Shown piece after piece: positions 2,154 through 49,933 of a stretch of 64,000 nucleotides of DNA; the first letter of the stretch is position 1; every line of letters begins with the position of its first letter. The position numbers were made by a program, and so were the translations under genes. The stretch spans positions 170,078-234,077 of the forward strand of contig KL197710.1 in the NCBI GenBank assembly GCA_000697665.1, in the 5' to 3' direction. The stretch is from Jaapia argillacea MUCL 33604. Taxonomy: Eukaryota; Basidiomycota; Agaricomycetes; Jaapiales; Jaapiaceae. Under the pieces are notes generated by a model, which saw only the letters and a program-made list of their open reading frames with translations, ran no database searches and was not told the DNA's origin.

Positions 2154-5100
2154 TTATGATAGCTTCTCCAGAGGGTTGATGATCGCTCCCATCTGAACGT
2201 AGAATCAGCAGGGGTTTCAACCATAATGTGCTCATAGAACCCACCTTCTTGACGACTTTGGGCAAGGTTCCCCGTTGGAACCCAAGCCGTGTATTCCATT
2301 CAGTACCTATTGGAGCCTCAATACTGCGCTCGTACTGGGCTTTGCTCGTATACGGGTAAGGGAGGTCCTTAACCATATACTTGGCCGCCTTCTTGTCACG
2401 TTTCTCTGAGATGATAACGTGTGCCTTGTTATAGTCGGCTCGAGACTTGGGATCGACACCCGCGACCTTTTTGATGAGGTGAGGTTTTGGTGCTTGGCGT
2501 CGGGCACCTTTTCCTCCCCACGAGCCCTGGGAAGAAGTTAGGTTGAATTGGGGAGTATAGAAGTGACGATGAGACCCACCCATCCAGGAAGAGTGGTGTC
2601 AACTTCATGAGGAGCGTCCTCTTGCATCTCCTTTCGCTTCATTGCCTCGAATTCCTAGTGGCGTAATGTCAATAGCGAATCTCCTGGCTATATCGAATAT
2701 GCTCACTTGAACGACATTGTCGCCAGCAAACGCGCGAGCTACCAAGTCTCGTTGTTCGAAAGGCTTAACCCCACCCTTCTTGCCCTTCCTTTCAAGAGCC
2801 TTCTCCTGCTCTTCGACTTCACTGTCACCATTCTCATCCTCCGATCCTTCTCGTCGAGGCTCCTGAGCCTTTTTCTTCTCAGATTCTGTTGTCGATGTCG
2901 AAGCGCCGGGTTTGTCGATAACCAGCACATCATCCATCGAAATCTCAACCAAAGCGTCCTCCTTGGCCTTCTCCTTCTCCTCCTCCCTCTTCTTCATCCT
3001 CTTTCTCAACTTATTCTTCGACTTGTCAACGCTGGCACTCTCTTTCGCAACTACTACTTCGTTCTTCTTTCGAGGTGCTGTAGTGCTGGTGGTTTGGGGG
3101 GCGAGCCACGGGTTGACTTTCTCTGTAGAAGAAGCGGATGGGGGTGGGGGTGGGGAATAAGCCGGAGGGTGATGTTCCGGCAGGTCGGTGGATTTGAGTG
3201 TGACACTGGAAGTGTCAGAAGGTAATGAACCTAACTGTCGGGGCTGTTGTCCCGTCTACGAAATAAACAATGAGATAAAACGGGCATCGCAAACCAAAGA
3301 ATCAAGTACTGACCAATGTACCTGGTCTTGCCTGCACTCGCCCTCCAACTCTTTGAACAGCCACACCACTCGATTCACCCTCCCCAACTTCTCCTCCAAC
3401 TTCCTCATCGCCCTCCCCTTCTCCTCCCACACCTCCCATCTCTTTAACGAAATCATCAGCCACCCTATCCGCCTTCTGCCGATCCCTAGCCATAGCATCC
3501 TTCATAAACTTCATATTAAAAATGCTCTTGTGTCCCCTCGCCACCTCCTCCTCCCCTACACCTCCATCCACCTCCAGCGCAGCGAGCTCTTCGAACGCAC
3601 TGGCTTTCAACTGCTCCAAATCTCCCTCCCCTCCTTCGTCATCATCATCCGATTTACCATCATCAGATCCACTCCCCTCACCGCGAATCTTCTTCCTCAA
3701 CTTCTCCCCCCTCTCCAACATCTCCAACATCTCCATCCTCTGATCACCATCCAATTCATTCCTGCCTTTCATAGCTTTCGCCCACTTGCCAGTATTCTTG
3801 TGTCTCAACGTAGCCCTCTCCTTCGCCCTCTCCACCTCTCTCTTCATCCTCTTTTCATCATCATCGTCATCTTCTCCATCTCCTTCCCCGCCATCAAGCT
3901 TAGCCAACAACTTCGCCTTCTCCCTCTTCTTGATCTTCCGAAAAGTCTTACTCTTAATCTTCGCAACCCTCTTCGCCTTAATCTCAGCTCTAAACATCAA
4001 ATCCCGCATCTTCCGTAACTCGGCTCGACGAGCAGAGACTTCTTCGATGGAAAGCGCGTTCAGTTTCAGTTCTTCCGTTTGGGAGATTTCAGATTCCCGT
4101 AGGTTGGCTAGTTTGAGGAGTTTGTCGACGGAGGATTCGAGTTCGGTCGTAGGCTAACACACCCAAAAAGCAAAAACGGGATCGCGTTCAGATCTAATCC
4201 AAAATGAAGGGGGAAATGGACTTAACGTACCTTGAACTTTGCAGTCAACTCCATATTAGAGCTCCTCCCGATAGGATGAGATTGTAACGGGAAACTGAGA
4301 TGATCAGCTTCCCTAATCCTCTTCATACTCTCCTTCCATTTATCAACCTCCTCCTTGGTCTGTTCATAAGCAGCCTCCCTATCCAACCTATCCTGCGTCC
4401 TTTGGGGTAACGGAGCTGATAACGGACCGGATTTGGAAGAAGATGACGCGACGAGAGGTTTGATGGATTTCTTTAGGGAGAGGAGGGTGGAGGATTGGGA
4501 GGCGAGAGGAGCGAGGAGGTCATTTAGGCTTAGTTTATTTGGACCTAGGATACGGAGTTGTAGGTTAGAAAGATTTTTCGTAAACGAAGCAAGATGGAGA
4601 CATACCGGAAGATGTCCCAAACTCATTCTCCATCCCAGCAGATGTCATCTCCTTCAAATATCGACGTTTGCGTGCGGGGGCACCCACATCCCCTTCGTCA
4701 TGGTCGGAACCTTTGCGTTTTTGAGATGTGGAAGGGAGGGAGGTTATGAATGTGTTGAGGGTGGATAAGGCTTCTGGGTCTGGTTCTTCGTCCGAAGGTG
4801 AGATATCTGAGGTGGGGTGCATCGGCTCGTCTTCCCCCTCGTCGTCATCGTCATCGTCCTGTTCATCTCCCTCCGAACCGTCCTGTCCATCTACTTGCGA
4901 CTCGTTCTCGTCTACATCCTTCTCCACGTTCCTAGGTCTCTCATACTCGACAGACCCAGCTTCGCTCGCGATATCAGGATCACCCCTCCCATCCAGCACT
5001 TCCAGAAGATCAATAAATTCATCATCCTCTCCCTCTTCTTCTTCATCCTCGTCCTCATCTGACCCGTCGCCTTCAGAAATTCTCCGTGAAGACGGTCGAA

Positions 5101-5710
5101 AAGCGGGTTGATCTTCATCCCCATCATCATCCTCATTCAAATCCACCTCAGCGAACCTAACAGACCTCTCACCAACTTTCCCCTTCCCGTTCCCCTTATT
5201 CCCTCCCGCCGAACCAGCCTTTCCTTTCTTCTTCACACCCGCCAAAACCCGTCAATCCATTTTCGAAATCAGAAAAGAATAGAAGCAAGTCACCTTCAAG
5301 TCCGAAGCAAAAGTAAACCCAGCAAATCTCTCCTCATCACTCTCCTCAAAAGCCTCATCACTATCAATCTCTTCATCATCCTCTTCATCTATTTTCTCAT
5401 CATCGACGTTCTCACCTATCAACCTTGGTCTTCCTCCTCCACTCCCTCCTACCCCTTCCCAGCCTCCCCCCTCATCATCATCCTCATCCTCATTACGCAA
5501 AGGTAGGTCTTCGTCTCGATCTAGAGTTAGAGAGACACCGGCTCTTGACCGGCGAGTTTTTTGTGTTTCGTATTCGTATACATCCTCAACTCCTGGTTTG
5601 GAGGAGGATGGTTTGCGGGAGTGACGGTTTGCGTAGCCTATTGCGTTAGATTTGGCTTTGGATTTGTGTGATGGTTTGGACGGCCGAAGGGGTTTATGTG
5701 CTCGGGCCAT
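2154..5710 (-). CDS. UTP14: U3 snoRNP-associated protein Utp14 (SSU processome)
   Basis: Component of the small-subunit processome in the nucleolus; Utp14 activates the helicase Dhr1 during 18S rRNA maturation. The start is the ATG at 5710 (MARAHKPLRPSKPSHK), not the upstream in-frame non-ATG codons. The N-terminal third holds long Asp/Glu runs; the middle is a Lys/Arg-rich coiled-coil region (e.g. RAEIKAKRVAKIKSK). The C-terminal block is the most diagnostic: an exon ending TTLPGW joins GSWGGKGARR, then HLIKKVAGVDPKSRADYNKA, ISEKRDKKAAKYMVKDLPYP, and GFQRGTLPKVVKK. A final intron (GTGGGT...TTCAG) leads to MGAIINPLEKLS and a TAA at 2156-2154. Roughly seven exons; length (about 900 residues) is normal for the family. 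Small gene-to-gene distance to the ubiquitin gene (365 nt). Confidence 0.96.
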
Positions 5711-6074
5711 GGTCGAACCAGTGAATGCAGTTGAAGCTGCTGGTGGTTGCAGGAGAGAAAAGTCGAGCACGTGATGTTTTCTGGAAAATGAAGTCGTTAC
5801 TTCGAGCATGGATTTAGGAAACCTTCGACGTTCATTGTTGTAGGCAGATCGGGCATTACAGATGACAGGGCTCTCAAATACTTGGACAGTATGGAATGTG
5901 GATCGAAGAGGTTCCCAAACCCGTAACGAGGTCTCTCATATGCATGTCATGTTTTGCATGTTGAAATGAGATACATAGAGAACTGGCGTGCAACTCATCA
6001 TCCTCCCCACAGCGTAGAGCTCCCTACCACACAGCGCTTCCAACGCCACCACAATCCGAATCGAAGCGAGTAGA
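5711..6074. other. Intergenic: UTP14 promoter / ubiquitin-eL40 3' flank
   Basis: Between the 3' end of the ubiquitin-eL40 gene and the UTP14 start. No reading frame with family character and no repeat was seen. Confidence 0.6.
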
Positions 6075-6782
<708 letters not shown>

Positions 6783-6972
6783 TTACTTGTTTGATTTCAG
6801 TTCTCAACTTTATTGTCGTTTGACTCTGGTGATACTTTACCCCCAGGACTTCTGGCCATGCTGCTACCTCACTCACCCATATCAGGAATGTTGTCGTGCG
6901 CTGTTTCTGGTACCAGGACGCCAGCAAGTCTACCTCCTGTGTCGTTCATAAAAGGACTTGGGATTTCATGTT

Positions 6973-7035
6973 CCCTCGGAAGTTATCCCGGGTTCATCGC
7001 CGTAATCTCCAGAGACTGGTCCTTCTGTTGAGATA
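6973..7035 (+). repeat. Imperfect direct repeat, copy 1
   Basis: Shares about 50 aligned positions with 7183-7240, including CTCGGAAGTTATC, CATC.CCG and ATCTCCA, with a few indels. Noncoding, probably an old local duplication. Confidence 0.55.
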
Positions 7036-7182
7036 CGGTGTCTGGAAGAACCAGTCCTGCCTCGTCTTTGGAAACTCTCGTCGCTCCCGCCCATTGGGAT
7101 GGTGGCCGTATCTCCATGCCATCGTGTACAACGACGCGGTATGCTACAATATCAGTCCAACAAGCCTCCCGTTGTCTGGCTC

Positions 7183-7240
7183 TCTCGGAAGTTATCCGGA
7201 TACATCTCCGCGATCTCCAACGTCTTCTGCTGACAACGAA
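7183..7240 (+). repeat. Imperfect direct repeat, copy 2
   Basis: Partner of 6973-7035, about 210 nt downstream in the same orientation. Confidence 0.55.
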
Positions 7241-7387
7241 CTATGAATACCAAATGATATCATATCAGGATCACTACTAGCCCAGGTCTTTGTCATCCAT
7301 CCCACTTCCAACCCAACGAGATATAACTTCCCTACCTCCCCTCCAATTCTTCTCCAACAATCCGAAGCCAAATACCACTGACCAACC

Positions 7388-8528
7388 ATGGCTCCCATCC
7401 CCCAAATGCAAGCAATCCATTTCTCCAAACCCGGATCCCCATCCGTCCTAACTCTTACAACAACGCACCTCCCTTCCCTCGAATCACCCTACGACATCCT
7501 CGTCAAGATCCACAGTTGCGCTCTCAACCCCGTAGACACCAAGATCCGTCAAGGCGCTTTCCCCTCGCACCCCATCCTCGGATTCGACGCATCGGGCACG
7601 GTAATCGCTTCATCCCCTCAGGCCCTATATAAACCGGGGGATGAAGTCATGTATGCTGGCGCTCTTGGGAGGTCAGGATCGAATGCTCAGTATGGAGTTG
7701 TGGATTCTAGGATTGTTGGGAGGAAACCGAAGGGATGGACGTGGGAGGATGCAGCGGGATTACCGTTGGTTGGGTTGACTGCTTGGGAAATGCTTGAGGG
7801 GCATTTTGGGTTGAGGCCATTTGAGGGGACGAAGAAGGAAGAGACGCTTTTGATTATTAATGGTGCTGGTGGGGTCGGGAGTGCAGCTACGCAACTTGCT
7901 AGGAAGGTGTGTTCGAAGTCGTTGCCCAGGGGCGGTTCTTTTGATTTACTGATGGATGGAAAGGTTTTTAATATTAAGAACGTGGTTGTTACAGCGTCCA
8001 GGAAGGAAACTATTGAGTGGGCCAAGAAGAACGGTGCAACCCATGTTATCAATCATCATGAAGAACTCGGTATGTCGTCCGGGCTCAAACGCACGATCCC
8101 AAAAGCTAACGTCCATATCAGCTCCCCAGCTCGAGAAACTAGGCCTGGTCCCCACACTGGCCTTTATCTGCTACGATACCACCACTTACCTCGAACCCCT
8201 CTGCAAAGTGATGTCTCCATGGGGCAAAATCGGTTCCATAGTCGAAGTAACTCAACCGCTCAATTTCCATATCATGGACGCATTCTCCAAATCCCTTTCC
8301 TTCCACTGGGAATTCATGCTTTCAAAACCTGCGCATCAGTTTGATTTAGAATCGCAAGGGAGGATGTTGAATGATTTAGCCAAGGCTGCTGAAGAAGGTT
8401 TGGTGGGGAGTTTGGTTTGGAGGAAGGAGGTGTTGAGTGTGGAGAATTTGAGGAAGTATCATGAGATTGTTGGGGAAGGGAAGGGGATGGGTAAGGTTGT
8501 GTTTGAGGTTAGGGATACGATCGAGTGA
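7388..8528 (+). CDS. Zinc-type alcohol dehydrogenase / quinone oxidoreductase-like protein (MDR superfamily)
   Basis: NAD(P)H-dependent oxidoreductase of the medium-chain dehydrogenase/reductase superfamily, close to the zinc-binding alcohol dehydrogenase-like/quinone reductase group. The ATG at 7388 gives MAPIPQMQAIHFSKPGSPSV. A GroES-like N-terminal domain (residues about 1-135) includes ALNPVDTKIRQG and LGFDASGTV; then the Rossmann domain with INGAGGVGSAATQLARK, the canonical GxGGVG nucleotide-binding loop. Two introns follow: one after ARK (GTGTGT from about 7908) and one after NHHEEL (GTATGT). They join VVVTASRKETIEWAKKNGAT and APQLEKLGLVPTLAFICYDT. The stop is TGA 8526-8528. There is no cluster of zinc-ligand cysteines, as expected for quinone-reductase-like members, so catalysis is probably zinc-free. 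The substrate is unknown. Confidence 0.92.
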
Positions 8529-36085: not shown

Positions 36086-36279
36086 GAAGGCTGGTGTCTT
36101 AATCCAACGCCACAATCCTGTACCAATAATCCGGCAAAGGCCGAGCCCTGTGATTGCTCATTCTCTCGACAAGATTTCGCGCAAACGGACCGTGTCAACT
36201 GTTACAGATTCATTTTCTCTATAATCTTCGGTTTTACGATGCCTGTCTTTTCCAATTCCCATTCCCCCCCTCACTCGAG

Positions 36280-38238
36280 ATGCAAGAAACCGCTGCCCCC
36301 GTTTACCCCACTCCGAAATCTGGAGCAAGCTTGTTGATCTCGTTCCGAGTTCAGGACAAGCTCGTCTTGATTGTGGGAGGGAATGTCTTGGCTGCTTCGC
36401 GAGCTTTTGCTGCGCTTGAGGCTGGGTCGAAAGTGGTGGTACTCGTCAAAGGTGGTGCTGAAACTGCCTGTGAGGAGTTGAGGTGGAGAGCTAAGCAAGA
36501 GCAGATCACTCTGGCTGATCTCGACCTTCTCCCCGATTCAACTCCGTCGCCTGGGGACGTAGAAACTTTCGAGGCATACCTGAGGGCATCCCAAAAACCC
36601 ATCAGCCTAGTCTGTGTAACAGACACTGTCATCGCCTCCTCTTCACCCTCCTCTGCACCCCAACGTTCCCGCTCCTCAGCCCTCGCTCTCTACAAAAGCT
36701 GTCAATCGCGTTCCATCCCAATAAACATAACCGACATGCCAGACCTCTGTGACTTTACCTTCACCGCTACTCATCGGTTTATCGATGCCGAGAGTGGTGA
36801 GCCGTCGGGTCTGCAAGTCGGTGTCACAACCAATGGTGAGGGTTGTAGGTTGGCCGGAAGGGTTCGGAGGGAAATCGTGGGGTTGTTACCTCGAGATGTG
36901 GGAAGTGCTGTTAGGAATGTGGGCAAGTTGCGTAACTTTGCCAAAGGCGTTGATGGTGAAGAAGCTACAGAGGAGGTCACGAGTGGCGAGGTGAACGAAG
37001 AAAATGGTATATCGACACCGAATGCACCCGTTCCTCAAAGAACGAGGAATACCGAGAGTTTGTTGGAGAGTCAGAGGAGGAGGATGAAATGGGTCGCACA
37101 GGTTAGCGAGTATTGGCCTATCAGTCGGTTGGCCAGTATGACAGATGAGGAGATGAGAGAACTCTTGAACGGAGAAGGAGGTTGGGAGAATAAATTGGTG
37201 TCATCTTCGGCAGAATCGGATCCATCTGGCCAGTCCCGGCCATCCGGTGCTGTCGTTCCCTCCCAACACTCACTCCCATTAATCCCCCCGCCTTCCCATC
37301 CTTCTTCTTCCCGTGGCAGGATCCTCCTCGTAGGCTCTGGACCAGGCCACCCATCTTTACTGACTATCGCAACCCATACCGCTCTAACTAAACACGCCCA
37401 GCTCGTCCTATCAGACAAGCTAGTTCCTGCTGCCGTACTTGCTTTGATTCCACCCGAGGTGGAAGTGAGGATAGCAAAGAAGTTTCCTGGGAATGCTGAG
37501 GGTGCTCAGAATGAAATGATGGAAGCCGCTGTTGAGGCCGCTCGAAGTGGCGTCACAGTCGTCCGGGTAATCTCCTTCAACTCTTTCTCATATATGAACC
37601 CGTGTTAATCTCCAGTTTTTCTCCAGTTAAAACAAGGCGACCCAATGGTATACGGTCGAGCAGGCGAAGAAGTTCTCTACTTCCGCGCACATGGGTTCGA
37701 ACCCATCGTCATCCCAGGTCTCTCCTCCGCCCTCGTAGCACCTGCATTCGCCGGAATCCCCGTAACCCAACGAGGAGTCGCAGAATCCTTCATCGTATGC
37801 ACAGGCGTCGGCAGACAAGGCAAAGAAGTCAAACTACCCGGCTACGAGCGTTCTCGAACTCTCCTAATCCTAATGGGCGTAGCCCGCTTACCTCAAGTCC
37901 TCAAAGCCCTCTTAACCGACGAACCCGATCAGAAATCAAGGAACGGACCTGCGTACCCCGAGAATTTACCCATTGCGATTATTGAGAGGGCTAGTATGCC
38001 TGATCAGAGGGTTATTGCTAGTACGTTGAGGAATGTAGAGAGAGCGCTGGAGGGGGCTGGGGAGCAGAGGCCGCCCGGGATGATTGTTGTTGGGTGGAGT
38101 GTGTTGGCTTTGGAGGGGAAGGGGGATGTTAGTGTTCTAGATCAGGGTGGGGATGATGAAGAGAGGGTTGGGAGGTGGCTTGGGGAGAAGAGTTGGAAGA
38201 TTAGGGATGGATTGGATGTTGATTGGGATCATTTATAG
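36280..38238 (+). CDS. MET1: Bifunctional siroheme synthase: Met8-like N-terminal domain fused to uroporphyrinogen-III C-methyltransferase
   Basis: Makes siroheme, the cofactor of assimilatory sulfite (and nitrite) reductase. Start ATG 36280 (MQETAAPVYPTPKSGASLLI). The N-terminal domain (residues about 15-220) resembles precorrin-2 dehydrogenase/Met8: VQDKLVLIVGGNVLAASRAF (NAD-binding GGxxxA), INITDMPDLCDFTFTATHRF, GLQVGVTTNGEGCRLAGRVR and RREIVGLLPRDVGSAVRNVG. The C-terminal SUMT domain begins GRILLVGSGPGHPSLLTIAT, then after a single intron (about 37567-37626) LKQGDPMVYGRAGEEVLYFR (SAM-binding motif), PVTQRGVAESFIVCTGVGRQ and PPGMIVVGWSVLALEGK. Ends GLDVDWDHL, TGA/TAG-type stop at 38236-38238. 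A Ser/Pro linker (residues 340-385) separates the two halves. The last ~150 nt are duplicated at 41597-41735. Confidence 0.93.
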
Positions 38239-39184
38239 TTGTTGCATACATTCGTCTATGCTGCTCAGTGCTAGTTGTCCCGTTTTTCGTTCATGTACCA
38301 TACACATCGTGCCAATGATATTATAACCGTTTCTTGACCGTTTCTGAAATTCTTGGTCCGAAGATGTCGCATGTTGCAGTCTCAAAACCAAACTCTGGTG
38401 TGAGGGAGGCAGAATGGACACCACGCCTTCCACTCGTGCACATTTTCTCGTTCTCTCAATCTACTTCATTTCTGCCCCAGCGATTAACCTTGCGTACCCT
38501 GGCGTGCACTGTAGAGACTGGTTTCAGTCTACGCATGTCCCGTCGAAAATTTAAAAATCCAAAAAAAAAAAGCCAAAAAAAAATCGAGAAAAACTACTGC
38601 TCCACGGAACCACACTCTACCGCTCACTGTTCAACCTGTCTCCTGTCTGTGGAACGTCGACTTAAACTTCGTTTGGCACGCGGAATGTTGCTTGTTCAAC
38701 ACAATACTCTCCAGGCTTAGCGCGCTGGTAAAATCTCAGGAACACATATATACGGGTGTGGGTGCGCGAATCTAGTGACCTTCGAGTGAAGAGAGAAGAA
38801 AAGCGATACCTTCCTGAGTGCTGAATGCCGGGAGGGGCGAAATGCCGGGCGCGACCAGCATGCAGGCTCGCATAGGTCAGTCCTGCTGCATTTCCAGGCT
38901 TCCAGCTCTCGTCGGACATGAATTTCCGGTTGTACAAAGTCGCCCGAACAACCCCGATCAAACTTTCAACAGTTGGACATTACACCAGCATCCCAGTTTC
39001 ACCACATCCCTCATGATCAAGCCTCCTATCACTGCGGCGAACTTACCTAACTGGATTGTGGTGGAGATGTGGATCATACTCCATGTGACGAGAACACGAT
39101 AACATGGATGTCTTATAAACGCTCATCCTGACTTGCTCTCAGCCTACGATTCGTGTCTTCTTTCCTCTCTGAAACGACACGAAG
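38239..39184. other. Intergenic; carries ~600 nt absent from unit B
   Basis: No gene seen. 38557-38592 is A-rich (two A-tracts). Sequence between about 38325 and 38935 has no counterpart in the downstream copy, where the flanks are joined directly near 41790-41800. TTATAAA at 39114 is the likely TATA box of the peptidase gene. Confidence 0.65.
39114..39120 (+). promoter_or_regulatory. TATA box, S33 peptidase copy A
   Basis: TTATAAA about 70 nt upstream of ATG 39185, conserved in copy B at 42024-42030. Confidence 0.55.
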
Positions 39185-41499
39185 ATGCCCTCCACCCCAA
39201 GGGAAAAGGTAGAGTACTCAGACGACAAGCCCCGCCTTCGCTCGTATGGCGGCGAATCGGAAGGTCGGACACAATCTGGGAGAATTTCCAGCCAGTGGAT
39301 CTTCCGTCTCCTGAGCTTTGGAGTCCTGGCCTTCCTTGCTTTGAAAGACGGTCATATTTCATTGTCGAAAGGACTCGAGGCTCTAAACTCTGGGTTTGGG
39401 TTCCTGTCCTCGGCGTCAAATTTGGTGGGAGGTGTGGAGTGGAAGTCATGTGGCGAAGGGTTTGACGGGTTCCAATGCGCCAACGTCTCCCTTCCGTTGG
39501 ACTATCACAATGATAGTGATCCACGAACTGTTACGATCTCTGTCAATAGGTTCTTGGCCACCAACACGACTCATAGGTAGGAGTCCGCACCCACTTTGTT
39601 CAACTTGACTTGACGTCCTTTGCAGGGAAGGAGCGGTGTTCATTAACCCTGGAGGTCCAGGTGAGGCTGACCCGCTCTATGGGTGGACACGAATATCGAT
39701 TGGATGTTAAGGTGGTTCCGGATCGTCCATGGGCTTCACAAAAGGCCCCTACATGTCCAAAATTTTCAAAGGTACGTGGAAAACCTCATAAGTTCGCCTA
39801 TAATATACATTGACTGACATTTTGTCGAAAGGACGATACGACATAATCGGTTTCGACCCTCGTGGCGTCAATCAATCTCTACCATATACTTCTTGCTTCG
39901 AGAACCAATTGGATGGAAATGTTTTCTCGGCCCTTGTGGATGGACTCGAACTGAATCTCCCGACGAATATGACTCTGGATAGCACAAGAGACTTGACCAA
40001 CCAGCTCACGAAAAGGGTGGCGGAGTTTACGGCGCTCACTGCGAAGTGCTATGAGAGAACCGGGGATGTGTTATCGTACTTGGGTGTGTGTTGCGATGGT
40101 TTTTGTTGTAGGCGACACAGACTCATGTACGAACGGTCACAGGTACTGAGGCTGTCATTCGGGACATCGACTCACTGTCCAAGATCATCGAAGGCGAGGA
40201 CGCCAGAATCAATTGTATGGAATTGTCTGTCTAGTTCGTCAACCCACTGACCGAGGACTGCTGATATCAGACTGGGGCTTCTCCTACGGAACTATCGTAG
40301 GACAGTATCTCGTCAAAATCCTTCCGCCCTCTCGAATCGGCAGAATCATGATTGATGGTGTTGTCAACCCCGACATCTATTCCGACTATCCTGTCAAGAC
40401 ATTTGATAGTTCGTCCACCTCCACCTAATCCGATGACCCCGTTGACCTATGGATCCCATTTAGACTATCTCATTGATTTGAGCAACCTTCTGACGTCTTT
40501 CGCTTCGTCTTGTGCGACTGCCGGCGAAGGTTGCGCCCTCTCTCATCTCAAACCGACCGAGATCCTTGCCAAAATTGACCACACGATCGATTATCTGTAT
40601 TACAACCCAGTCCCCATTACCGACTTGCGCGTGCCGACAATCCTCACAGCCTCTCAACTGCGAGAGATGCTCTTCCTAGACATGTACAAAATTCAAACTT
40701 GGCCTCAGCTGGCGGAACACCTTGATCAAGCATTCAAGGGGAACTTCAGTGGGATTGCGAACGCCACTATGCCTACCGTTCATGGTGATGGGTATCAAAA
40801 GCATGACGGGTCGACTTATGCTCACGAGGCTATCTTGGTGCGCATCTTCCCTGGGTTGAGAGACAACACCGAACGCTGACGTTGTGGCATTAGTGCGCTG
40901 ACATGAAACCATACTCTTCCGACCGTCCTCCCCCCACCATAGTTGAACTCGTGGAATACATAGTTGACGCCCTCTTCAAGTTTGGTCCCCCATTTGGGGA
41001 CAAATTCTACAGTTGGTCTCTCTGTGGAATATGGCAAGACACCGTCCCGCAAAAAAGTCGATACAAGGGTTCCTTCGATTTGGTCGACGACACTTTGGAC
41101 ACGCCGGTTCTCGTTCTATCGTATGTCGTTATTCTCTCATAGTCGTGACAGCTATTGAAAATGGTTCGCAACGATCTTAGGAACACATTCGACCCTGTCA
41201 CCCCCCTCCTCAACGCCGAATACGCCAACGAACGTCTCGGTAACAACGCAAGACTCGTTCAACAAGTTGACGGCTGGGGTCATTGCACTATCGCCCAAAA
41301 GTCGTTCTGCACCGCTGAAATTGTCCATGTATACATGGTGGAAGGAAAAGTGCCCGAACAAAAGCGCACACTTTGCGATATCGACGAAGAGCCTTTCAAG
41401 CCGTTCAACGACACTGTTTTCCCTCGTTCGCAGAATAGCGTGGATGCGGAGCTGCGGCAGGCTTGGATACAACTCACCGACAATTGGGAATGGGATTGA
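39185..41499 (+). CDS. S33 (TAP-like) serine peptidase with N-terminal membrane anchor, copy A
   Basis: Alpha/beta-hydrolase peptidase of the tripeptidyl aminopeptidase-like S33 group, probably releasing short peptides. Start ATG 39185 (MPSTPREKVEYSDDKPRLRS). A signal-anchor helix lies at about residues 38-55 (WIFRLLSFGVLAFLAL), giving a type II topology with an outward or lumenal catalytic domain. The core reads FDGFQCANVSLPLDYHNDSD, oxyanion motif INPGGPG joined by an intron to GSGSSMGFTKGP, YDIIGFDPRGVNQS, nucleophile WGFSYGTIVGQY, then NTFDPVTPLLNAEYANERLG (Asp) and VDGWGHCTIAQKSFCTAEI (His). The triad is intact. About eight introns; TGA 41497-41499. Nearly identical to copy B. Confidence 0.92.
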
Positions 41500-42023
41500 T
41501 TGTTAATGCTGACCTACTTGAGGAAATTTCCTTGCTCAAGTACTCTCGAATGTTCTCCGGTCTAAAGTCCCAGTTTGAAACTTGGGTGGCCACTACTATG
41601 TTGGCTTTGGAAGGGAAGGGGGATATTGGTGTTTTGGATCAGAGTAGGAACGATGAGGAGAGGGGAGGAGAGGGTGGGGAGGTGGGGAGAAGAGTTGGAA
41701 GCGATAGGTTGCATGTTGATTGGAATCATTTATAGTTGTTGAATACTTTTTTATGCTCTTTTGTGTTAGACGTCTTGCACGTGCCAATAATATCACAAAG
41801 TCGCCCGAAAATGTGTTCTCAAACTTTGAACAACGTTACACCCTATCTTCACGTCGATGCCAGCATCCCAGTTTTAACTTTTCGCCGCATCTGCTCTGAT
41901 ACGTCTTCGGCCCTCATGATCAAGCCTTCTATCACTGCGGTGAACTTGCCTGGGGACAAACTGGACTATGGTGGGAGATATGGACCATGCGCCATGTGAC
42001 GAGAACACGATAACATGGGTGTC
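41500..42023. other. Intergenic between S33 copies; contains orphan siroheme-synthase tail
   Basis: 41597-41735 encodes, in the same frame as the upstream gene, LALEGKGDIGVLDQS...HVDWNHL plus its stop, a decayed copy of the siroheme-synthase C terminus with no start; it is the left edge of duplication unit B. Confidence 0.8.
41597..41735 (+). pseudogene. Orphan 3' fragment of the siroheme synthase gene
   Basis: Reads LALEGKGDIGVLDQSRNDEE and ends VDWNHL with TAG at the same place as the parent (LALEGKGDVSVLDQGGDDEE ... VDWDHL). The middle has changed (a 6-nt-scale indel near GGEGGEVGRRVG) and there is no upstream coding sequence, so it can only be a duplication by-product carried with the peptidase gene. 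Confidence 0.85.
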
Positions 42024-42030
42024 TTATAAA
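42024..42030 (+). promoter_or_regulatory. TATA box, S33 peptidase copy B
   Basis: TTATAAA about 70 nt upstream of ATG 42095, at the same offset as in copy A. Confidence 0.55.
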
Positions 42031-42094
42031 TGTGCATCCTGACTTCCCCCAGGCTGCGATTCGTGTCTTCTGTCCTCTCTGAAACGACACGAAC

Positions 42095-44401
42095 ATGCCC
42101 GTAATCCCAAGGGAAAAGGTCGAGTACTCGGACGACAAGCTTCCCCTTCACTCGTATGGCGGCCAATCGGAAGGTTGGACATCGTCTCGGAGACTTCCCA
42201 GCCAGTGGATCTTCCGTCTCCTGAGTTTTGGCGCCTTGGCCTACATCGCTTTGAAAGACGGTCATATTTCATCGTCGAAAGGACTCGAGGTTCTAAACTC
42301 TGGGTTTGGGTTCCTGTCCCCGACATCAAACTTGGTTGGAGGTGTGGAGTGGAAGTCATGTGGCGAAGGGTTTGACGGGTTCCAATGCGCCAACATCTCT
42401 CTTCCGTTAGATTACCACAATGATAGTGATCCACGAACTGTTACGATCTCTGTCAATCGGTTCTTGGCCACCAACACGACTCATAGGTTGGAGTCCTCAT
42501 TTACTTTCTTCAACTTGATTTGACGTCCTTCTCAGGGAAGGAGCAGTGTTTATCAATCCTGGAGGTCCAGGTGAGTTTGACCCTCTCTACGGGTTGACAC
42601 GAATATTGATTGGATGTCAAGGTGGCTCCGGATCGTCTATGGGCTTCACAAAGGGCCCCTACATTTCCAAAATATTCAAAGGTACATGGAAAACCTCATA
42701 AGTTCGCCTGAAGTATACATTGGCTAACATTTTTTCGAAAGGACGATACGACATCATCGGTTTTGATCCTCGTGGTGTCAATCAATCTCAGCCATACACT
42801 TCTTGCTTCGAGAATCAACTGGATGGAGATGTTTTCTCGGCCCTCGTGGATGGACTCGAACTGAATCTCCCAGCGAATATGACTCTGGATAGTATGAGGG
42901 ACTTGACCAACCAACTCACGAGAAGGGTGGCGGAGTTTACGGCGCTCTCTGCAAAGTGCTATGAGAGAACCGGGGATGTGCTATCGTACTTTGGTGCGTG
43001 CCGAGTTGGTTTTACTGCGGACGACACCGACTCACGTCGGCCACAGGTACTGAAGCTGTCATCCGGGATATCGACTCACTGTCCAAGATCATCGAAGGCG
43101 AGAACGCCAGAATCAATTGTATGGAATTGTCTATCTAGTTGGTCAACTCACTAACGAGGACTGCTCATATCAGACTGGGGCTTCTCCTACGGAACTATCG
43201 TAGGACAGTATCTCGTCAAAATTCTTCCTCCTTCGCGGATAGGTAGAATCATGATTGATGGCGTTGTCAACCCCGATATTTATTCCGACTATCCTGTTAA
43301 GACGTTCGATAGTTCGTCCACCCCCATTTCCTCCGATGACCCCGTTGACCCATGATTCCACGCAGACTACCTCATCGATTTGAACAACGTCCTCACGTCC
43401 TTCGCTTCGTCTTGTTCATCTGCTGGCGAAGGTTGCGTTCTCTCTCATCTCAAGCCCACGGAGATCCTTGCCAAAATCGATGACACTATCGATTATTTAT
43501 ATTACAACCCAGTCCCCATCACCGATCTGCGCGTGCCGACAATCCTCACAGCCTCTCATTTGCGAGGGATGCTCTTCCAAGATATGTATAAGATTCAAAC
43601 TTGGCCTCAGCTGGCGGAACACCTTGACCAAGCATTCAAGGGGAACTTCAGTGGGATTGCGAGCGCCACTATGCCTACCGTTCACGGTGACGGATATCAA
43701 AAGCATGATGGGTCCAATTATGCTCACCAGGCTATCTTGGTGCGCACCTTCGCCTGGTTGAAATGGAAGATTGAACACTGAAGTTGTGGCATCAGTGCGC
43801 TGACATGAAGCCATACTCGGCCGATCATCCTCCTCCCACCATAGCTGAGCTCGTGGAATACATCGTTGACGCCCTCATTGAGTATGGCCCCCGATTTGGA
43901 GACAAATTCTACAGTTGGTCGCTCTGTGGAATATGGCAAGACACCGTCCCGCAAAAGAGTCGATACGAAGGCTCCTTCAAGTTGGTCAACAATACTTTGG
44001 ACACGCCGGTTCTCGTCCTATCGTATGTCGTTCTCCTCTAGTAGTTGTGACATCTATTGAAGATGGTCGACAACGATTTTAGGAACACATTCGACCCTGT
44101 CACCCCCCTCCTCAACGCCGAATATGCCAACGAACGTCTCGGTAACAACGCAAGACTCGTTCAACAAGTTGACGGCTGGGGTCATTGCACTATCAGCCAA
44201 AAGTCATTCTGCACTGCCGAGATTATCCATGCATACATGGTGGAAGGGAAAGTTCCCGAACAAAAGCATACACTTTGCGATATCGACGAGGAGCCATTCA
44301 AGCCATTCAATGACACTGTTTTCGCTAGTGCGCAGAAAGGTGTGGATACGGAGCTACGGCAGGCTTGGATGCAACTCACCGATGGTTGGGAATGGGATTG
44401 A
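42095..44401 (+). CDS. S33 (TAP-like) serine peptidase with N-terminal membrane anchor, copy B
   Basis: Tandem paralogue of the preceding gene, about 85-90 percent identical by eye at protein level. Start ATG 42095 (MPVIPREKVEYSDDKLPLHS); anchor helix WIFRLLSFGALAYIAL. Same intron positions, including GGPG/GSGSS (donor GTGAGT, acceptor TGTCAAG). Motifs present: YDIIGFDPRGVNQS, WGFSYGTIVGQYLV, NTFDPVTPLLNAEYANERLG and VDGWGHCTISQKSFCTAEII. TGA 44399-44401. Differences from copy A concentrate in the N-terminal 40 residues and surface loops (e.g. KLPLHS versus KPRLRS; SSAGEGC versus ATAGEGC). Reading frame and splice sites look intact, so both copies are probably expressed. Confidence 0.92.
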
Positions 44402-44894
44402 TTGTTGATGCTGACTTGCTCCAGAGAATATCCCTGCTCGGTAGCGTTATCCAGTTTGTATCAATTAAATAGTTGGAAGTTCATTCGGTCTCAAGTTCCA
44501 AAGCTTGGGCGACTAGGACCTTCAGAGTCGACCACAAATTTAAGACTTCCTTCATTAGTAAAATGTTGCCAGAGATTTCACTGCTCCAACTCGCAGTCAA
44601 AAGAGCCTCTGCATCGGGGTGACCCAGGCTGCTGCTACAGTAGCGCTCCGCCGTTGTGGTCTGCATCCGATCCTCTTCACGATCCTGCCTCCTCAAACTT
44701 GGTAGGCTGGACAGCTGGCCGTGGGTCAAAGAGAGTCAACCGAGCTCAGTACTAGTGATATCGTCACCGTGGGATCGTCTCAAGGCGTTCGGGCACAGAG
44801 ATACCCGGTAATAAACACAGAACAGTTATAAAGCCTGCAGTCAACGCCAAATCGAGGATGAGAACCGGGCTTGCCGCACTATCCGTTTTCCCCA
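44402..44894. other. Intergenic before the hydrolase cluster
   Basis: The first 110 nt belong to duplication unit B; the rest holds the promoter of the first alpha/beta-hydrolase gene. No gene seen. Confidence 0.6.
44826..44840 (+). promoter_or_regulatory. TATA plus AGCCTGCAG block, hydrolase copy 1
   Basis: TTATAAAGCCTGCAG about 55-70 nt upstream of ATG 44895. The AGCCTGCAG immediately after the TATA element recurs at the same place in the second copy (TATATAGCCTGCAG, 46655-46668) and third copy (TATGTAGCCTGCAG, about 48432-48445). Confidence 0.6.
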
Positions 44895-46191
44895 ATGACT
44901 TCTCCCTCGTCGAATGATTTCTATCGTTACCGCCACAAGCCTATCAAGACTCTCTACTTGATTTATCAATTCTTCTCGACAGTCTTCGTCAGGATTCCAT
45001 GGTGGATCATAGTATCAGTCCTTCCGGCCATGAGACCTCGGAGGTCGTGGTCCATCGGGCGTTGCTTCCATGTACGCCTGATGAGGCATCTCATCTATGT
45101 TGGGTATCAGTGAGTCGCTTCCTTTTCCATCACCATACGCCTCAGACATCGAACGAGAGCTTGAAACGTATCGTAGCGCTGGTCGACTTCAGAAGCGTCC
45201 CAACCATCTTGCCATTCCAGAAGGAGTCAACATCAAAGGCGTATGGGTTGACCCGGCTCCCTCCCTTCTCACTGCAGAGCTCAGATCCTATGGATCGATC
45301 TCCTCTGTCGAACCAGCCCGTATCCCTGGCTACTGGCTCGACAAAGTCGGCCAAGACCTCCCGATCGCCTCACCTCCTCTCCCTCATGAGAAAGTCGTCT
45401 ACGCACTCCATGGAGGTGCCTACATCTCTCTATCCGCCCACCCGGAGGATGTCACCGCGAACATTGCGAAAGGGTTGCTGGAGCATTGTAACGATGTGCA
45501 TCGAACTTTTTCCGTCGAGTACCGACTCTCCGTTGGGGCTCCATTCAAACCGAGCAACCCCTTCCCAGCTGCTTTGTTAGACGCGTTGGCAGGATATAAC
45601 TATCTTGTCAGTATCGTTGGTTTCTCGCCTTCCAACATTATCGTAGAAGGAGATTCGGCAGGCGGGAACCTTGCATTGGCCCTCACACGCTACCTCGTGG
45701 AAAATCAGAATAATTCCGAAGGTATCAAGTTACCTGCGCCTCCCGGCTCACTCCTTCTATTGTCGCCTTGGGGTGATCTCGGACATTCACACAACATCCC
45801 TGGATCGTCTGTGACCACTTGCGCATCATCCGATTATATCGGTGGATTAGGATCATTACAGTTCATCTACCCTCATCTCGCTTTTACCGGCCCACACTCC
45901 CTCGAAGCAGCCGAGACGAACAGATACATATCTCCTGCCTCTAGGAACCCTGCGATGGGAAAGGTGTCCTTCAAGGGTTTCCCGAAGACGTTCATAGTTG
46001 CGGGAGGTGCGGAGGTGTTGTTGGATTCGATCAGGACTTTGAGGAATAAGATGGTTGAGGACTTGGGTGAGGATGGAGATGGTGGTGTCACCTATTATGA
46101 GGCTGAAGATGGAATTCATGATTATTTGGGGGCAACATGGCATGAACCAGAGAGGTCGGAGACTCTGGCCGCCATCGCCGAGTGGATTTGA
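44895..46191 (+). CDS. HSL-type alpha/beta-hydrolase (esterase/lipase), intact copy 1 of 3
   Basis: Serine hydrolase of the hormone-sensitive-lipase/alpha-beta-hydrolase-3 family. ATG 44895 begins MTSPSSNDFYRYRHKPIKTL, followed by a membrane helix LIYQFFSTVFVRIPWWIIVS; the protein is probably membrane-anchored. The single intron (GTGAGTCGCTTCC...TATCGTAG) joins HLIYVGYH to AGRLQKRPNHLAIPEG. The core reads VKGVWVDP-like VNIKGVWVDPAPSL, ARIPGYWLDK, oxyanion motif YALHGGAYISLS, FSVEYRLS, nucleophile IIVEGDSAGGNLALALTRYL, AGGAEVLLDS (Asp) and EDGIHDYLG (His). All catalytic residues are present. TGA 46189-46191. The sequence SLQFIYPHL carries a three-residue insertion relative to the other copies. 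Confidence 0.9.
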
Positions 46192-46649
46192 ACCTCGAGC
46201 TCCTCTTCCGCCCCTTCCCGTGTAACATTATGCACTACCAGTTGCGAGACCGTTCATATCGCTTGCATTAACCTCCGGAAGCTTGTGCTGCGGCTCCGGA
46301 TGACCCCTACGTTACTGGAGAGCGTCTGACCGGTATTAGGGAGCTTTGGTTCGGTCCGTTCTGACCCATCCGTGACCGACCATTAGCCCTAATTACTCCG
46401 CGATCAACCAGGAGAAATCAAGTGGCGGATGCACCATCGAGGTACCTGAACACGAAGGAGGTGCATTTGATCCTTGACATGAATTTCTTGGAGAATTCAT
46501 CAATCATGGAGACGTATCTCCCTCGCCCCACAGCTCTAGCAACTCAACTGGTGGCTGGTTGGAAAAAATCGCATTCTTATGAAACGTGCTGTAAACGTCA
46601 AGTTGGTTATATCGTCATTGTACTGTGGATCGGGAAAACACAGTTTAAC
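46192..46649. other. Spacer between hydrolase copies 1 and 2
   Basis: The first 110 nt are conserved 3' flank; the remainder is unique and noncoding. Confidence 0.55.
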
Positions 46650-48112
46650 CTGACTATATAGCCTGCAGCAACTGATCCATCCAAGATGAGAAACAGTACT
46701 CATCTGTTGTCCCCAATGACTTCTCACTCGCCGAATAACTTCTATCCTTACCGCAACCAGCCAACCAAGACTCTCTACTTGACTTAGCAGTTCTTCACGA
46801 CAGTCTTCATCAGGATTCCATGGTGGATCATATCGTCGGTCCCTCCGGCCATGAGACCCCGGAGGTCATGGTCCATCGGGCGCTGTCTGCATATACACTT
46901 GCTGAGGCACTTTATCCATGTTGATCATCGGTGAGTGGCCTTCTTTTCCATGACCATGGGTTAGACATTGACCGAGAGTAAACATATTACAGCGTTGGTC
47001 CACTTCACAAAAGTCCCAGCCATCTCGCCATTCCAGAAGGAGCCAACGTCAAAGGCGTATGGGTTGACCCAGTCCCCTCCCTTCTCACCGCAGAGTTCAG
47101 ATCCTTTGCATCAATCTCCTCGGTAGAACCAGTCCGCATCCCGGGCTACTGACTCGACAAGGTCGGACAAGACCTCCCGATCGCCTCACCTCCTCTCCCT
47201 CATGAGAAAGTCGTCTACACACTCCATGGAGGCGGCTACACCGCTCTATCCGCCCACCCAGAGGATGTCGCCGTGGACATGGCGAAAGGGTTGCTGGAGC
47301 ATTGTAAAGATGTATATCGAACTTTTTCGATCGAGTATCGACTCTCCGTCGGGGCTCCATTCACACCGAGCAACCCCTTCCCAGCCGCTTTGTTAGACGC
47401 GTTGGCGGGATACAACTATCTCGTCAATATCGTTGGGTTCTCCTTCCAGCATTATTGTGGAAGGAGACTCGTCAGGCGGGAACCTTGCTTTGGCCCTCAC
47501 GCGCTACCTAGTCGAAAATCAGAATAATTCCGAAGGTATCAAGCTACCTGCGCCTCCCGGCTCACTCCTTCTATCGTCACCTTGGGGTGATCTCGGAAAT
47601 TCGCACAACATCCCTGGATCCTCTGTTACCACTTGCGCATCATCCGATTATATCGGTGGATTAGGGTTCATCTACCCTCAACTCGCTTTGACTGGTCCAC
47701 ACTCCCTCGAAGCAACCGAGACGAACAGATATATATCTCCTGCCTCTAGGAACCCTGCGATGGGAAAGGTGTCCTTCAAGTGTTTCCCGAAGGCATTCAT
47801 AGCTGCCGGAGGTGCAGAGGTAATGTTGGATTCAATCAGGACTTTGAGGAACAAGATGGTTGAGGATATAGGTGAGGAAGGAGATACTGGCGTCACCTAT
47901 TATGAGGCTGAAGATGCGGTTCATGATTATTTGGGGGAGGCATGCCATGAGCCAGAGAGGTCGGAGACTCTTGCGGCCATCGCAAAGTGGGTTTGAACTT
48001 GAACCTCCTCTTTTGCCCTTTTCCGTCTTGTTGTCTCGTATGTGTAGCATTATACATGACTAGTTGCCAGAATGTCGATGTCACTTGCGTTCCCCTCCAA
48101 AAGCTTGTGCCA
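46650..48112 (+). repeat. Hydrolase tandem unit 2
   Basis: Second unit, with the same promoter block and 3' flank (AAAAGCTTGTGCC). Confidence 0.8.
46716..47996 (+). pseudogene. HSL-type alpha/beta-hydrolase, copy 2, decayed
   Basis: Corresponds to the intact gene throughout and keeps VKGVWVDP, LHGGGYTALS, GDSSGGNLALALTRYL and EDAVHDYLG. It is not translatable as one protein: the first exon has an in-frame TAG where copies 1 and 3 have TAT CAA (Tyr-Gln; about 46786), the GYW codon in the second exon is TGA (about 47151), and two bases are missing near 47438, shifting the frame just before the nucleophile motif. The intron donor GTGAGT is retained. The base changes are few, so decay is probably recent. 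TATATA and AGCCTGCAG are kept upstream. Confidence 0.85.
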
Positions 48113-48431
48113 ATGGAAACATCTAACCGGCAGGCCAATATTATGGTCCGACTTGCTCCGCGAGAATCCAGGAGGGGTATGCGCCATGGACGTACCTGGG
48201 CACCAAGTGGGGGCATCCGATCCCAAACCCATGTCCTTCATATGCATTCCTCGGAGAACAGACGTTGGCTCCCGTGTACTTGGTTGAAGCCGGACTCCTT
48301 TCAGTTGCCACAGCGTGTGAGCTTTGTCCCGAAAAGTAGTTAGAATCCCAAAAAGTAGTTAGGCGTTAGCTAACTACTTTTTAGGACAAGTTGAAATTCC
48401 AGGTATGACTCCAGAGCCGTTTCCCGAACGA
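47997..48431. other. Spacer between hydrolase copies 2 and 3 (contains the foldback element)
   Basis: 3' flank of copy 2 followed by unique sequence and the foldback element at 48323-48389. Confidence 0.55.
48323..48389. mobile_element. Miniature foldback element (about 66 bp) with terminal inverted repeats
   Basis: Left end CTTTGTCCCGAAAAGTAGTTAG, right end CTAACTACTTTTTAGGACAAG; the right end reverse-complements to CTTGTCCTAAAAAGTAGTTAG, a near match to the left. Inside, AAAAAGTAGTTAG and CTAACTACTTTTT form a perfect 13-bp stem with a 7-nt loop (48350-48382). A third copy of AAAAGTAGTTAG starts the left end. No coding capacity; possibly a truncated MITE. Confidence 0.5.
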
Positions 48432-49933
48432 CATATGTAGCCTGCAGCGAGTCCAGGATGAGAACTCGGACGTGCAGCGCCTACCGTTTTGTCAAATGAC
48501 TTCTCACTCGCCGAATAATTTCTATCCTTACCGCCACCAGCCTATCAAGGCTCTCTACTTGACTTATCAACTCTTCACGACAGTCTTCATCAGGGTCCCA
48601 TGGTGGATTATATCGTCAATCCCTCCGGCCATGAGACCTCGGAGGTCATGGTCCATCAGGCGTTGCCTCCATATCCGTTTTTTGAGGCACGTTATCCATG
48701 TTGATAATCGGCGTGTCGCTTTCTTCCCCACCACCGTGGACCTTAGACATTGACCGAGAACAAACCTACTTTGTAGTGTTGGTCCACTTACCAAAAGTCC
48801 GAACCATCTTGCCATTCCAGAGGGAGCCAACGTCAAAGGCGTATGGGTTGACCCAGTCTCCTCCCTTCTCACCGCGGAGCTCAGATCCTTTGCATCAATC
48901 TCCTCGGTAGAACCAGCCCGCATCCCGGGCTACTGGCTCGACAAAGTCGGACACGACCTTCCGATATCCTCACCTCCTCTGCCTCATGAGAAAGTTGTCT
49001 ACGCACTCCATGGAGGTGGCTACGCCGCTCTATCTGCCCACCCAGACGATCTCACCGCGGACATCCCGAAAGGGTTGCTGCGGCATTGTAAGATGTGCAT
49101 CGAACCTTTTCGATCGAGTATCGACTTTCTATTGGGGCTCCATTCACACCGAGCAACCCCTTCCCAGCCGCTTTGTTAGACGCGTTGGCAGGATACAACC
49201 ATCTTGTTAATATCGTTGGGTTCTCACCATCCAATATTATCGTAGAAGGAGACTCGGCAGGCGGGAACCTTGCACTGGCCCTTACGCGCTACCTCGTCGA
49301 AAATCAGAACAATTCCGAAGGTATCAAGTTACCTGCGCCTCCCAGCTCCCTCCTCCTATTGTCGCCTTGGGGTGATCTTGGAAATTCGCACAACATCCCT
49401 GGATCCTCTGTTACCGCTTGCGCATCGTCCGATTATGTCGGCGGATCGGGGTTCATGTATCCTGTACTCGCGTTCATCGGTCCGCACTCCCTCGAAGCAG
49501 CCGAGACGAACAGATATATATCTCCTGCCTCTAGGAACCCTGCGATGGGAAAGGTGTCCTTCAAGGGTTTCCCAAAGACGTTCATAGCTGCCGGAGGTGC
49601 AGAGGTTATGTTGGATTCAATCAGGACTTTGAGGAATAAGATGGTTGACGATATCGGTGAGGATAGAGATGGTGGTGTCACCTATTACGAGGCTGAAGAC
49701 GCGGTTCATGATTATTTGGGGGTGGCATGGCATGAGCCAGAGAAGTCGGAGACTCTTGCGGCCATCGCGAAGTGGGTTTAAACCTCGAGCTCCTCCTTCC
49801 CGCCCCGCATCTTGTTGTCCATATATCCTTCCAGATTGTAGTACGGTTTTCATGATCTTGTATAGCATTATCTATTACCATTTACCAGAATCGCTCGCGT
49901 TCACCTCGGAAAGCTTGCGCTGCGGCTCCGGCC
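48432..49933 (+). repeat. Hydrolase tandem unit 3
   Basis: Third unit. The TATA-like element is weakened to TATGTA but AGCCTGCAG and the 3' flank (AAGCTTGCGCTGCGGCTCCGG) are conserved. Confidence 0.8.
48496..49781 (+). pseudogene. HSL-type alpha/beta-hydrolase, copy 3, probably non-functional
   Basis: Starts MTSHSPNNFYPYRHQPIKAL with the anchor helix and keeps HGGGYAALSAHP, IIVEGDSAGGNLALALTRYL and EDAVHDYLG. One base is missing near 49088 (CATTGTAAGATG versus CATTGTAACGATG in copy 1), shifting the frame before EYRLS. The intron donor appears changed from GTGAGT to GCGTGT at about 48715. The rest is open. A GC donor can splice, so the frameshift is the stronger sign of loss. The promoter TATA is also degraded. 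Confidence 0.75.

Follow-up and report, generated by a model that had tools for sequence, protein, structure and literature searches.

Tandem duplication of a predicted TAP-like hydrolase gene together with the tail of a neighbouring siroheme synthase gene in Jaapia argillacea

Introduction

Tandem units that combine a complete gene with part of its neighbour are well described in budding yeast. The CUP1 array of Saccharomyces cerevisiae is built from units of 1.2-2.0 kb, and YHR054C is a partial copy of RSC30 (PMC4232551). In the type 1 arrangement, the unit includes 1 kb from the end of RSC30, its neighbour; a full RSC30 remains at the end of the array. Homology at the junctions amounts to at most 3 bp in types 2-5 and is absent in type 1; nonhomologous end-joining is the mechanism that the authors prefer (PMC4232551). 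Another route to segmental duplication in yeast is template switching between microhomologies, which depends on Pol32 (PMC2518615).

Here, we analyse a window of 64,000 nucleotides (C2:170078-234077) from a genome of 43.7 Mb in 95 contigs, in which a predicted hydrolase gene is present twice in tandem. In the open-licence literature, none of the matches listed (title and start of abstract) dealt with this locus, and the combination of 'tandem duplication', 'tripeptidyl aminopeptidase' and 'basidiomycete' returned zero papers.

Results

Two direct tandem units and their junction

A first-pass annotation of the window had proposed a tandem duplication comprising a peptidase gene and the tail of the adjacent siroheme synthase gene, and had suggested comparing the window with itself. 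Self-BLAST bears this out, with two off-diagonal matches that cover both units: 39008-41513 against 41911-44415 (88.3% over 2516 columns) and 38102-38249 against 41599-41746 (80% in a gapped alignment of 153 columns, E 1e-23). The latter is the orphan siroheme tail that had been noted upstream of the second peptidase copy. Unit A extends over ~38.10-41.58 kb and unit B over ~41.59-44.51 kb, in the same orientation. Each direct tandem unit comprises the end of the siroheme gene, the promoter, a gene of nine exons and eight introns, and ~100 nt beyond the stop codon. The units are not collinear throughout, as A carries ~600 bp (38322-38934) that are absent from B. The features are as follows:

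36154-38238, + strand: full siroheme synthase gene, source of the copied tail (Pfam, tblastn); the range begins at the stop-to-stop frame, not at an assigned start codon
38090-38102, + strand: left break point, within the final exon of the siroheme gene (self-BLAST, sequence inspection)
38322-38934, no strand: repeat segment specific to unit A and related to a TIR element; it may be decayed and has partial copies elsewhere
39008-39184, + strand: copy A promoter with 5' region (identity to B, 157/176 aligned columns)
39185-41499, + strand: copy A, predicted TAP-like (S33-type) alpha/beta hydrolase (gene model, Pfam, PDB chains)
Copy A exons 1-5, + strand: 39185-39576, 39626-39660, 39712-39771, 39832-40083, 40143-40214
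Copy A exons 6-9, + strand: 40271-40408, 40464-40837, 40894-41120, 41181-41499
41582-41598: duplication junction, at which the 3' flank of A joins the siroheme tail (self-BLAST, unit alignment)
41599-41735, + strand: orphan siroheme tail, a relic (blastn, tblastn, translation)
41911-42094, + strand: copy B promoter with 5' region (alignment with A)
42095-44401, + strand: copy B, predicted TAP-like (S33-type) alpha/beta hydrolase (gene model)
Copy B exons 1-5, + strand: 42095-42486, 42536-42570, 42622-42681, 42742-42993, 43047-43118
Copy B exons 6-9, + strand: 43174-43311, 43366-43739, 43796-44022, 44083-44401
44505-44515: right end of unit B, equivalent to the ancestral right break point (unit alignment)

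The break points fall about where the first-pass annotation had placed them: the left one at 38090-38102, the right one 104-114 nt after the stop codon of B, and the junction at 41582-41598. The motif TTGGG occurs at the left parent (38090-38094), the junction (41582-41586) and the right parent (44505-44509); given that the junction is blurred over ~17 nt and that five bases can match by chance, it is a candidate microhomology only. Self-BLAST of the window at E 1e-10 detected no repeat pair at the break points apart from the duplicated unit itself, so that the parental break points share little or no homology, at most the candidate 5-bp motif. Since no homology longer than TTGGG was found, joining by end-joining or template switching is favoured over homologous unequal crossover. 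Of the earlier proposal of one unequal event, the single event is supported, and 'unequal' is better not taken to mean homologous crossover.

The siroheme synthase gene and its orphan tail

The full siroheme synthase gene matches the Pfam families NAD_binding_7, Sirohm_synth M and C, and TP_methylase, and its last exon ends at 38238. The fusion of these domains, together with the short introns of the hydrolase genes described below, fits a fungal genome. When the C-terminal part was searched against the own genome, the candidates scored at E <= 0.001 came from two places, the full gene and the relic. The relic matches its source at 123 of 143 aligned nucleotides and differs from it by four indels, which cancel and leave its length unchanged; at the protein level, identity is 52% over 50 residues (tblastn). 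At this protein identity, the relic looks unconstrained. It contains an open frame of 45 codons (41598-41735) whose ATG lies at the junction and for which we claim no translation; with this frame, the relic resembles YHR054C in miniature.

The two hydrolase copies

Gene models for both copies were built by hand at the coordinates of the first-pass annotation. Each predicted model comprises nine exons and encodes 622 aa in a frame that is open after splicing, and the eight GT-AG introns (49-60 nt long) occupy matching positions. The proteins are identical at 559 of 622 residues. The copies had been called nearly identical: intron positions and promoter are indeed common to both, but identity reaches only 88% at the nucleotide and 90% at the amino acid level. 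Searched with the DNA of copy A, the own genome yielded A and B alone among the best candidates, which, as in the siroheme search, were the only ones scored. A genome scan also recorded a fourth TAP-like match on C5.

Copy A matches PF00561 (Abhydrolase_1, 2.4e-11) and PF08386 (TAP-like C-terminal, 7.8e-15), both above the cut-off; for copy B, the assignment draws on the match of its last exon to PF08386 in the genome scan and on its 559/622 identity to A. The catalytic triad, described earlier as intact in both copies, is present in A and B as S275 (in GFSYG), D521 and H551. The closest solved structures by sequence are Hip1 / CaeA (Carboxylesterase A), which align to copy A residues 83-576 with the GxSxG serine, the aspartate and the histidine in register; the triad of copy A was aligned with that of Hip1. 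The relationship is distant (E 3e-29), and the function of both proteins is predicted only. By domain composition and triad, both copies are predicted to be TAP-like / S33-type serine peptidases. An N-terminal hydrophobic stretch is present in A and B, with a best 19-residue Kyte-Doolittle hydropathy of 1.51 and 1.13, respectively. These values lie below the usual threshold of 1.6, which just a distant paralogue (paralogue C, see below) passes, at 1.96. The membrane anchoring proposed in the first-pass annotation is therefore no more than a possibility for A and B.

A repeat segment upstream of copy A only

The segment present in unit A only is ~613 bp long, lies ~250 bp upstream of the copy A start codon, and has TA at each end (ends TATAACCG... 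and ...CGGTTGTA). The distance from the siroheme stop codon to the peptidase start codon is 587 nt greater in A than in B. Parts of the segment recur at four further genomic sites (five matches, 69-91% identity). One such locus, L004 (C21:400189-401362), is an element of ~1.17 kb whose terminal inverted repeats (TIRs) are 76 bp long and 93% identical; it starts with TACAACCGTTTCGG and is apparently TA-flanked, and a related end is found at C9:423932 with 3 mismatches. Aligned with the TIR of this element, the left end of the A-only segment scores 58 and the right end 38, a value that none of 2000 random 60-mers from window positions 1-36000 reached (largest score, 27). On the basis of the dispersed related copies and of the match of both ends to the terminal repeats of a proven-TIR element, we call the segment related to a TIR element, possibly in a decayed state.

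An intact MITE was considered and rejected, as the segment's own two ends do not form a significant inverted-repeat pair: blastn detected none between them, and their direct alignment scores 24, as high as or lower than that of 60 of 2000 random 60-mers. For the other partial copies (L005, L006 and L007), blastn likewise found no TIR pair. We also discarded a hidden gene as the nature of the extra ~600 bp, its 133-aa frame (38319-38720) being without a Pfam match.

Unit B is uninterrupted at the corresponding site. Compared by eye with B, the predicted empty site shows two differences in 28 bases, of which one falls in the TA; the same reading by eye makes TA the likely target site of the segment. 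The simplest order of events would be duplication first and insertion into A later, loss of the segment from B being the alternative.

Divergence of the duplicated parts

Copies A and B differ at 76 of 438 intron columns, at 43 of 263 four-fold sites and, in the siroheme relic, at 20 of 143 positions. Promoter differences amount to 19 of 176 columns (0.108). The 3' flanks (17/86 columns) and the stretch past the siroheme tail (14/51) align poorly. Divergence is uneven along the unit, with differences at neutral sites ranging from 4/39 to 8/20 per 300-nt window. The parts nevertheless diverge broadly as expected if the whole unit had one age, which falls short of proof. No evidence of gene conversion between A and B was detected, the longest identical run being 29 in 701 neutral columns, a length reached in 39.75% of 10000 shuffles.

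Selection and relative rate of the two copies

The coding regions of A and B align without gaps over 1869 nt, and the introns contain 4 indels in 438 columns; at the intron rate, ~17 indels would be expected in 1869 unconstrained coding columns, and none was seen. Three methods placed dN at 0.049-0.055 and dS at 0.26-0.34. On the basis of the missing coding indels and of dN and dS, both copies look to be under purifying selection.

Changes were polarised with paralogue C (L038; 630 aa, nine exons, modelled on A). Over 613 columns, 24 derived residues were assigned to A and 6 to B, with 31 of the 61 differing sites left unassigned by this outgroup (chi-square 10.8, binomial 0.0014). Derived nucleotides numbered 74 in A and 48 in B (56 without assignment; chi-square 5.5). 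Nonsynonymous changes were distributed 33 to 15 (17 without assignment; binomial 0.013) and synonymous changes 41 to 33 (39 without assignment; binomial 0.42), the outgroup being saturated at synonymous sites (codon branch 2.8). Maximum-likelihood branches point in the same direction, at 0.27 for A and 0.08 for B with codons and at 0.091 and 0.021 with protein. Copy A is perhaps the faster-evolving of the two. The two classes of change do not differ significantly in how they are split between the copies (33 vs 15 nonsynonymous against 41 vs 33 synonymous, Fisher 0.18), so that relaxed constraint on A, and with it a change in dN/dS, is no more than suggested.

A broken esterase-like array and a second locus

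Directly downstream of unit B lies a triplicated esterase-like gene, aligned as 44852-46240, 46672-48050 and 48452-49830. It matches Abhydrolase_3 and, more weakly, Say1 (steryl-acetyl-hydrolase-like) and BD-FAE in Pfam. The three copies are 85.5-88% identical, and the first has an open main exon. Relative to copy 1, copy 2 is broken by a stop at 47150 and a 2-nt deletion near 47435, and copy 3 by a 1-nt deletion near 49083; sequencing indel errors are a possible source of these breaks. At similar divergence, the extra esterase-like copies are thus broken and both peptidase genes whole, and the former give a picture of what copies that are not kept look like at this locus. The array spacers contain short repeats (46356-46473 and 48275-48418) with matches on C7 and C8.

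A second locus lies ~165 kb away, at C2:378-392 kb, and contains:

L038:4335-6664, opposite strand: peptidase paralogue C (predicted model)
L039 about 4450-8050, 8 kb from paralogue C: two tandem esterase-like paralogues

Peptidase and esterase-like genes differ in relative orientation between this locus and the window. Among frames of at least 50 codons in a 20-kb stretch of the second locus, only those over the peptidase and esterase-like genes had matches in the window at E 1e-6. The linkage of peptidase and esterase-like genes at two loci may descend from an old segmental duplication.

Discussion

The order and orientation of the units, their approximate break points, two open gene models and broadly comparable divergence can be read directly from the window. 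One tandem duplication explains how the units are ordered and oriented, why an orphan tail is present and why the parts have diverged to a broadly similar degree. We consider it most probable (about 0.88) that a single ~2.9-kb tandem duplication was followed by insertion of the repeat in A only, with both copies kept by purifying selection. In such a history, a point ~100 nt past the stop codon of the ancestral TAP-like gene would have been joined into the last siroheme exon with little or no homology, either by end-joining or by microhomology-mediated template switching at a broken replication fork. Each copy would have retained its complete coding region together with the intergenic promoter. 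Copy A would have lost its own distal 3' flank and received the siroheme tail and 3' flank instead, which may supply its poly(A) site. The ~613 bp TIR-related repeat would have entered later, ~250 bp upstream of A, a polarity suggested by the uninterrupted site in B. Purifying selection since then would most likely have maintained two working hydrolases, possibly with different regulation and mildly different rates of change.

The same observations could be read as a split in regulation at the birth of the duplicates, with A moving toward a new or narrower function and B remaining in the ancestral role. Copy A would then have gained a siroheme 3' end, possibly with its terminator, and subsequently an upstream repeat, and would have changed its residues about four times faster; the presence of the hydrolase locus (peptidase plus esterase-like) twice on the contig would indicate a region that duplicates repeatedly. 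We regard this as unlikely. Homologous unequal crossover between earlier flanking repeats could draw on the TTGGG common to the left parent, the junction and the right parent, and is nonetheless very unlikely given that self-BLAST at E 1e-10 revealed no repeat pair at the break points beyond the unit itself.

Alleles of some fungi can be highly divergent, and an assembler might in principle have placed one gene, or the two haplotypes of a dikaryon, in tandem. A divergence of 12% is unlike the collapse and re-expansion of one gene, a tail with 52% amino acid identity, 123 of 143 matching nucleotides and four indels is unlike an allele of a working gene, and the A-only segment is missing from B. 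Assembly error is on these grounds an unlikely source of the two copies, and we give such an artefact only a slim chance. Repeat DNA beside copy A might instead suggest that the peptidase gene inserted or transposed twice independently, the least probable of the explanations weighed here: introns are retained, the orientation is equal, the siroheme tail was carried along, and the repeat sits within the upstream region of A and does not frame the unit.

The junction is comparable to those of the Pol32-dependent duplications in having short homology and a gene fusion at the join; those are experimental yeast events, whereas the mechanism proposed here is deduced from an old and blurred junction (PMC2518615). 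Another parallel is CUP1/YHR054C, which shares with our locus a tandem unit containing a gene and part of a neighbouring gene, and little or no homology at the junction. CUP1 is present in more than two copies in most strains, whereas the locus studied here has two copies at 88% identity with a repeat beside one of them. CUP1 dosage matters for copper resistance; no known benefit attaches to the present peptidase copies.

The locus is a readable record: both break points, the join and what is probably a later insertion can be arranged as successive steps, and the adjacent broken esterase-like array provides an internal comparison. General knowledge of gene duplication is unchanged by it: in architecture it is CUP1-like, ordinary in kind and well resolved. 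New here are the A-only repeat, the apparent selection on both copies, the triplicated esterase-like gene and the linked paralogues ~165 kb away. To the CUP1-type architecture, the locus adds an old and diverged example, and it offers a case in which a 3'-end swap following duplication can be tested.
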